Assembly: GCA_001553355.1 (NCBI GenBank)
Contig: KQ960828.1
Span: 67,668-131,667, forward strand
DNA from: Veillonellaceae bacterium DNF00626
GTDB lineage: Bacteria > Bacillota > Negativicutes > Veillonellales > Dialisteraceae
Reading direction: 5' to 3'
DNA: 64,000 nucleotides
Positions 38,859 through 57,798 of this stretch are shown here, piece by piece. Each line of letters opens with the position of its first letter. Within the stretch, counting starts at the first letter, position 1. A model generated the notes under the pieces. That model did not search any database and was not told where the DNA came from. It saw only the letters and a program-made list of their open reading frames with translations. The position numbers were made by a program, and so were the translations under genes.

Positions 38859-38935
38859 GGCCCGGTGGTGTAGTGGTCTAACATGCCGCCCTGTCACGGC
38901 GGAGATCGTCAGTTCAAATCTGATCCGGGTCGCCA
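38859..38935 (+). tRNA. tRNA-Asp (GTC)
   Basis: Acceptor GGCCCGG pairs with CCGGGTC; discriminator G; encoded CCA at 38933-38935. Anticodon loop CTGTCAC between CCGCC and GGCGG, anticodon GTC at 38893-38895. T-loop TTCAAAT is present. Confidence 0.96.
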
Positions 38936-38937
38936 TT

Positions 38938-39012
38938 GCGGAAGTAGCTCAGTGGTAGAGCACAACCTTGCCAAGGTTGGGGTCGCGGGTTCGAGTCCCG
39001 TTTTCCGCTCCA
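38938..39012 (+). tRNA. tRNA-Gly (GCC)
   Basis: Acceptor GCGGAAG pairs with TTTCCGC; discriminator T; encoded CCA. Anticodon loop TTGCCAA in stem CAACC/GGTTG, anticodon GCC at 38970-38972. Only two bases separate it from tRNA-Asp. Confidence 0.96.
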
Positions 39013-39015
39013 AGC

Positions 39016-39089
<74 letters not shown>

Positions 39090-39112
39090 CAATTTTCAGT
39101 TACTTTTCTCAT

Positions 39113-39201
39113 GCCGGGGTGGCGGAACTGGCAGACGCAAGGGACTTAAAATCCCTCGAATCGTGAGATTCGTACCGGTTCGATTCCGGTCCTCGGCACC
39201 A
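39113..39201 (+). tRNA. tRNA-Leu (TAA)
   Basis: Acceptor GCCGGGG pairs with CCTCGGC; discriminator A; encoded CCA. Anticodon loop CTTAAAA in stem GGGA/TCCC, anticodon TAA at 39147-39149. The long variable arm (CGAATCGTGAGATTCG) marks a class II tRNA. Confidence 0.96.
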
Positions 39202-53807: not shown

Positions 53808-53836
53808 TTGACGCAAGTGTTAGAAATATTTATAAT
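53808..53836 (+). promoter_or_regulatory. Consensus promoter of the structured RNA upstream of cysS
   Basis: TTGACG (53808-53813), 17-nt spacer, TATAAT (53831-53836). The expected start, about 53843, is exactly where the RNA's closing stem begins. Confidence 0.85.
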
Positions 53837-53842
53837 CAGGAT

Positions 53843-54053
53843 AAATGTGAACAGGTCTGTGGTTGAAAGTCGAAGCCAGTCGCAGGCAAAACGATCCACG
53901 TAAGGTATACAAAGGTGTACTGAGCATGGTGCGGCTTAGAAGTAAGTCCTGCCGAGAAAATCGAGAGAGTGAGTTGTGAGAGGTAAATACCGGGTAGCTA
54001 AAATTCCAGCAGGCGAGTGTGGGGTCAAAAACCAGGTCAGCTGTTTATATTTT
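53843..54053 (+). ncRNA. Structured non-coding RNA, ~210 nt (candidate raiA-motif RNA)
   Basis: A 12-bp closing stem is visible: AAATGTGAACAG (53843-53854) with CTGTTTATATTT (54041-54052), allowing G-T pairs. Inside is a hairpin GTATAC-AAAG-GTGTAC (about 53909-53924), and AAGCC/GGCTT and GCAGG/CCTGC pairings that cross each other, as in a pseudoknot. There is no ORF. Segments such as GTTGAAAGTCGAAGCCAGTC and GATCCACGTAAGG look like conserved core sequence and remind me of the raiA motif, but that identity is from memory. It precedes the cysS T-box; whether the transcript is shared is unknown. Confidence 0.6.
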
Positions 54054-54084
54054 CCATAATGAAATAAAAGCTATGATCAAAAAG

Positions 54085-54274
54085 AGTAGATAGTTAGGAT
54101 TTCTTCAGAGAGATCGGGACAGTGGAAACCGATTGAAATGTAATTATTGAAGTGCGTTTGTGAGCTAAAGTGGTGAAAAAATAGTAGCTTCTTTCGTGAA
54201 TCTGCGTTAATGAATCGGCTTTATAGCTGCAGAGTGGATTGCGGACCACCGTCTCTGTGAGGCGGCGGTTTTTT
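54085..54274 (+). promoter_or_regulatory. T-box leader of cysS (Cys specifier TGC)
   Basis: An AGAGA element (54107-54111) is followed by the stem ATCGG/CCGAT (about 54113-54133) and the specifier region GAAGTGCG with TGC at 54153-54155, matching tRNA-Cys(GCA). The T-box itself is divergent: AGAGTGGATTGCGG (54231-54244), where TGGA would pair with the UCCA end of tRNA-Cys. The terminator stem is ACCACCGTCTC/GAGGCGGCGGT (54245-54269) with a T-run. Uncharged tRNA-Cys would favour read-through into cysS. Confidence 0.8.
54245..54274 (+). terminator. T-box terminator hairpin before cysS
   Basis: 11-bp stem with one A-C mismatch and a TGT loop, then TTTTTT. It ends 17 bases before the cysS start. 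Confidence 0.82.
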
Positions 54275-54291
54275 GTATATAGGAGGGGTTT

Positions 54292-57593: not shown

Positions 57594-57798
57594 CGTAAAC
57601 ACAAGGATTGAGATAGTATTTTTGCTTTGCTTTACAGAGAAAAGGTGGTTGGTGCAAACCTAAGCAAATAAAAATATGTCCCCTCAGGAGTGGTCGGTGA
57701 TGAATCGGACGGCAAGTAACCGTTATTACATTGAGTTGGCTTATGCAATTTGGGTGGCACCGCGATGACTTCGTCCCATGAGGAAGAGGTCTTTTTTT
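57594..57798 (+). promoter_or_regulatory. T-box leader of serS (Ser specifier TCC)
   Basis: GA element ACAGAGAAAAGGTGG, then GGTGCAAACC, then the specifier TCC at 57679-57681 (Ser). Canonical T-box TGGGTGGCACCGCG at 57751-57764; TGGC pairs with the GCCA end of tRNA-Ser. The terminator is GACTTCGTCC (57767-57776) with GGAAGAGGTC (57782-57791) and seven Ts. Seryl-tRNA shortage would switch on serS. Confidence 0.92.
57767..57798 (+). terminator. T-box terminator hairpin before serS
   Basis: 10-bp stem with one G-A mismatch, a CATGA loop and a run of Ts. Confidence 0.85.

Follow-up and report, generated by a model that had tools for sequence, protein, structure and literature searches.

The structured RNA described here, about 210 nt long, is a strong and ordinary member of the known raiA (ModT) class, and its genomic setting is new: in the family of its host, the RNA has lost its own terminator and is fused to a T-box-cysS leader. 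It was found in a stretch of 64,000 nt from Veillonellaceae bacterium DNF00626, referred to below as the window. A raiA RNA joined to a cysteinyl-tRNA synthetase gene was not encountered in the literature searched; the synteny study by Soares et al. 2024 lay outside that search. Families are labelled f1, f2 and so on as handles for comparison, f1 being the family of the window. The features are compiled in Table 1.

Table 1. Features of the raiA-T-box-cysS locus in window coordinates, and positions of the HD-GYP-like protein gene in genome and locus coordinates
Feature	Position	Strand	Remarks
SigA-type (sigma70) promoter TTGACG-17-TATAAT	53808..53836	+	-35 at 53808-53813, -10 at 53831-53836; 11/12 consensus
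raiA (ModT) RNA, predicted mature extent	53843..54052	+	covariance-model match 53846-54049
Closing stem P1, 5' strand	53843..53854	+	pairs with 54041-54052; 53843-53845 form 3 pairs outside the Rfam model
P3 hairpin	53875..53887	+	stem 53875-53877/53885-53887; loop 53878-53884 forms pseudoknot pk-1 with 53930-53936
pk-loop half of pk-1, UGCGGCU	53930..53936	+	pairs with P3 loop 53878-53884
Closing stem P1, 3' strand	54041..54052	+	
Cys T-box leader	54064..54259	+	RF00230, 92.3 bits; begins 11 nt past P1
T-box specifier codon UGC (Cys)	54153..54155	+	UGC in 15/15 f1 and f3 leaders
T-box bulge UGGA	54235..54238	+	complementary to the UCCA 3' end of tRNA-Cys
T-box intrinsic terminator, first terminator 3' of the raiA RNA	54249..54275	+	
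cysS, cysteinyl-tRNA synthetase, 481 aa	54292..55737	+	PF01406, E 7e-134
HD-GYP-like protein	G000:C9:22429-23025 (L187:2903-3541); L188:2237-2926		

The initial annotation had guessed at the raiA class and proposed a search with covariance models, including that of raiA. This search matched Rfam family RF03072 (raiA RNA) over its full length (model positions 1-209 of 209) with 199.7 bits and E=2.5e-51, against a gathering score of 101.3 bits. Compensatory changes, named there as possible support for the stems, were found in an alignment of 54 of the order's raiA RNA copies. Across the whole structure 26 pairs had changes on both sides, the covariation score was 0.306 compared to 0.134 after shuffling, and 86.6% of cells were paired under the Rfam structure versus 33-44% in registers slid by moving the 3' partners by 1-3 columns. 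The closing stem P1 consists of 12 contiguous pairs. An internal hairpin with crossing pairings had been suspected as well and corresponds to P3 and pk-1, which are kept and covary in the 54 relatives: the 7 bp of pk-1 were paired in about 96-97% of cells, and both-side changes occurred at one pk-1 pair and at one P3 pair (C-G to U-A and to G-C). The cryo-EM structure in PMC11751092 also has a pk-1 of seven pairs, formed by the pk-loop with the P3 loop.

No ORF of at least 60 aa overlaps the raiA RNA. The RNA is single-copy in the genome of the window, and exactly one match, each above the cut-off, was found in 60 of the 61 sampled genomes of the order, the remaining one being 75% complete. 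RNase P, tmRNA, SRP RNA and 6S RNA, as had been anticipated, and other Rfam classes gave no match at the site; only raiA and the T-box did, and the 6S RNA of this genome is located elsewhere. That the fold is a chance structure without a functional RNA is practically ruled out. The minimum free energy of the stretch (-58.5 kcal/mol) gives by itself a modest z of -2.3 against dinucleotide shuffles, but the covariance-model match refutes such an origin, and the covariation and the near-universal presence in the order oppose it too.

The promoter upstream of the raiA RNA had been called perfect; it is real, and with 11 of 12 consensus positions the wording was a slight overstatement. Since its -10 element stops at 53836, the start is predicted 7 nt on, at 53843, which coincides with the first base of the 12-bp closing stem as first described. 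The 3' end of the extent given then, 53843-54053, was one base too far because the stem stops at 54052. Promoters matching at least 10/12 positions precede the raiA RNA in all 11 f1 loci. No own terminator was detected within 75 nt of the raiA RNA in any of these 11 loci, and the transcript ends considered below are predictions from sequence. The missing terminator does not exclude the raiA class, because some orthologues without a predicted terminator near the 3' end were reported (PMC11706538). An own intrinsic terminator is a frequent and not a defining feature of raiA RNAs, and the same holds for a neighbouring comFC or raiA/HPF gene. Neither gene lies beside the raiA RNA in the genome of the window, where HPF is found on contig C62 and comFC on C9.

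A Cys T-box leader and cysS follow directly 3' of the raiA RNA, with no terminator in between, an arrangement absent from the initial annotation. At 0.7 bits below the RF00230 gathering score (93), the T-box goes unreported in a default scan, and with it the raiA-T-box tandem. Despite the sub-threshold score, we assign the element to this class, as predicted from its UGC specifier and UGGA bulge, which agree with cysS and tRNA-Cys. In counting the specifier among the 15 leaders of f1 and f3, a shifted motif in two of them was read by eye; AGAGTGGA was present at the bulge in 15/15. The tRNA-Cys(GCA) gene at window positions 39016-39089 ends in UCCA. It belongs to an Asp-Gly-Cys-Leu tRNA cluster at 38859-39201, its CCA is encoded, and its U discriminator matches the T-box bulge. 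Past cysS, genes with RNase III, SpoU methylase and YacP domains follow. A second T-box (window 57595-57781, 94.1 bits) is situated upstream of serS, a few genes past the raiA RNA. In two other loci (L113 and L115 of genomes G002 and G005), runs of short CTAG-containing repeats (ACTAGTGTACTAG...) are inserted in the cysS leader between the T-box terminator and the gene.

The order raiA RNA, T-box, cysS is conserved in 11/11 f1 loci, while the genes upstream were swapped repeatedly. A search for the closely spaced fusion identified 9 of 12 f1 genomes and none of the 289 other genomes of the class; two further f1 loci have the fusion with slightly wider spacing, judged by eye. The raiA RNA as such is present in 182 of 301 class genomes, about 171 of them outside f1. 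In a strict scan, a terminator directly 3' of the raiA RNA was detected in 28/28 f2 loci, 13/17 f4 loci, 0/11 f1 loci and 0/4 f3 loci; the remaining 4 f4 loci show imperfect hairpins followed by T-runs when inspected by eye. All four f3 loci carry a TTGACA promoter with a 17-nt spacer (10-11/12) right after the raiA RNA, followed by the T-box, cysE and cysS. In the SerS tree, f1 groups with f3 (88/82). The simplest history is that the raiA RNA and the Cys T-box operon adjoined before the split of f1 and f3, with later loss of the promoter between them in f1. In genus g2 (G009, G006), the RNase P RNA is encoded about 100 nt upstream of the raiA RNA on the same strand (L014:1055-1708, L116:2040-2674), so that two genes for housekeeping RNAs stand in tandem.

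We consider it probable that the locus produces a trans-acting raiA/ModT RNA of about 210 nt from a housekeeping promoter, that in f1 the cysS transcript begins with this RNA, and that the RNA serves the timing of the transition from growth to stationary phase. RNA polymerase would first make the raiA RNA and then the T-box sensing tRNA-Cys. T-box mechanisms are well established. With charged tRNA-Cys, the T-box terminator would end the transcript after about 430 nt, and with uncharged tRNA-Cys read-through into cysS would result. Because it lies upstream of the T-box decision, the raiA RNA would be made at any charging state. The expression of cysS would track the raiA promoter, and only the 3' fate, a ~430-nt RNA or the cysS mRNA, would depend on charging. 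Cleavage beside the closing stem probably releases the raiA RNA. The outward extension of P1 fits a 3' end that is processed at the stem and not set by a terminator: on average, 4.5 contiguous pairs lie beyond the Rfam model in f1 and f3, against 0.3-0.4 in f2 and f4. The longer stem is found in most and not all f1 members: in genera g3 and g4 there are just 1-2 extra pairs, and a different signal would be required for processing in these genera.

Alternatively, the raiA RNA and the T-box might be independent neighbours, with a T-box promoter and a factor-dependent raiA terminator that both escaped detection, and their proximity would have no consequence. A separate promoter of just that kind exists in the sister family f3, weak 9/12 sites occur between raiA and the T-box in 2 of the 11 f1 loci, and the T-box could have its own start at a weak or atypical promoter within the 3' end of the raiA RNA. 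We regard this as unlikely, since no site of at least 8/12 was found between the two elements in the other 9 f1 loci, the spacing is too short for a terminator in most f1 loci and none was found in any, and the arrangement outlived the changes of the upstream genes.

It is more doubtful still that the raiA RNA acts in cis on cysS, as a riboswitch or leader, and forms a two-input control of the synthetase together with the T-box. Rfam classes raiA as 'Cis-reg; riboswitch', the RNA is always found in the cysS leader within f1, and tandem riboswitches exist (PMC12452182). Against this stand the genes downstream of the raiA RNA, which vary by family (cysS, cysE-cysS, an amino-acid ABC binding protein, a thioesterase), the terminators of f2 and f4 directly past P1, with the gene located beyond, and trans complementation, which excludes cis action in Clostridioides difficile (PMC11706538). 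On these grounds a cysS riboswitch was rejected as the main reading.

The raiA RNA of the window, proposed to be co-transcribed with cysS and trans-acting, can be compared with three known systems. With the raiA motif/ModT (RF03072) it shares the full-length match, the plan of P3 and pk-1, the SigA-type promoter, the intergenic location and the single copy per genome. It differs in having no own terminator, a closing stem lengthened up to the predicted start, the fusion to the T-box-cysS leader, a position away from comFC and raiA (HPF) and a host without Spo0A and GGDEF. Like ModT(L), the long isoform of C. difficile (PMC11706538), it would consist of a raiA core with a 3' extension arising from transcription past the core. 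The C. difficile extension, however, ends at a second intrinsic terminator ~45 nt on (PMC11706538), whereas that in the window would be a complete T-box riboswitch of ~220 nt. The T-box portion resembles cysES/cysS leaders (RF00230) in its UGC specifier, UGGA bulge, attenuator terminator and downstream cysS, but is preceded by a raiA RNA with which it apparently has a common promoter.

The initial annotation had described the function of the class as largely open. This is fair but dated, as disruption of the raiA RNA was studied in two clostridia (PMC11706538 and a study cited there) and cryo-EM structures exist (PMC11751092, PMC12286853). ModT was described as trans-acting, with a role in growth-phase transition; its loss in clostridia raised c-di-GMP, leading to less sporulation (PMC11706538). 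The cellular role is proposed by analogy. Acting as RNA or as ribonucleoprotein, the raiA RNA of the window most likely governs, like clostridial ModT, when growth gives way to stationary phase, by a route that would need neither sporulation nor c-di-GMP. None of the 61 genomes sampled from the order has Spo0A_C, and 48 of them have no GGDEF, among these the genome of the window, which is 99% complete. Because these domains are missing from raiA-bearing genomes, neither sporulation nor home-made c-di-GMP is the universal target of raiA RNA. Sporulation as a universal role had already been argued against from non-spore-formers (PMC11706538); the absence of GGDEF bears on the question, raised by the same work, of whether ModT generally acts through c-di-GMP. 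A gene for a ribosome hibernation factor was present in 59/61 genomes of the order, and 6S RNA likewise in 59/61; as 6S RNA is also nearly universal, the raiA RNA is not a substitute for it.

The raiA RNA co-occurs with a protein, c0, that has a single HD-GYP-like domain (PF13487, E 2e-36) and contains the motifs HD and HHEKWDGSGYP. The c0 gene is the divergent neighbour of the RNA in f2, f3 and f18, and outside the order 36/36 near pairs are divergent with gaps of 83-441 nt. A further 33 genomes have the two on one contig in the same relative orientation but at a greater distance, mostly 10-55 kb. In the genome of the window, the c0 gene is found together with comFC and recD on a contig other than that of the raiA RNA. 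Among 301 Negativicutes genomes, 166 have both, 3 only the protein, 16 only the RNA and 116 neither, hence 3 of 169 strong hits occur without a raiA RNA; in one of these three genomes (G201) the contig ends 120 nt from the gene, at the expected position of the RNA. A Fisher test value for this co-occurrence overstates the evidence because the genomes are related. The raiA-negative genomes form four lineages in the SerS tree, in which well-supported branches force at least 3 changes; all four are without a strong HD-GYP-like hit, and two (f11 and f22) consist of incomplete assemblies. comFC, the other old neighbour, was rejected as a partner since its occurrence does not follow that of the RNA: f16 and nearly all genomes of f14 retain comFC, both being without raiA RNA. 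The association with the HD-GYP-like protein is therefore not merely one of shared location. The family f14 (e.g. G070, G088, G104) is large, includes many complete genomes, and has neither a raiA RNA nor a strong HD-GYP-like hit; keeping comFC, it is a natural loss lineage for the RNA. From these co-occurrence patterns it is conceivable, as a tentative and rather unlikely proposal, that the raiA RNA works together with c0, perhaps as its regulator or RNA partner. As most genomes of the order are without GGDEF, the substrate of c0 would be something other than home-made c-di-GMP.

In the clostridia studied, few RNAs reach the abundance of the raiA RNA, and its structures were solved. Its persistence in small, non-sporing genomes without c-di-GMP synthases points to a core role separate from both known phenotypes. 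The T-box fusion is a naturally occurring long form, with a 3' end expected to vary with the charging of tRNA-Cys, the HD-GYP-like protein is a concrete candidate for a partner, and the Negativicutes families that lost both the RNA and this protein are natural controls. Together, the setting and the co-occurrence make the open function of the raiA class testable in new ways.
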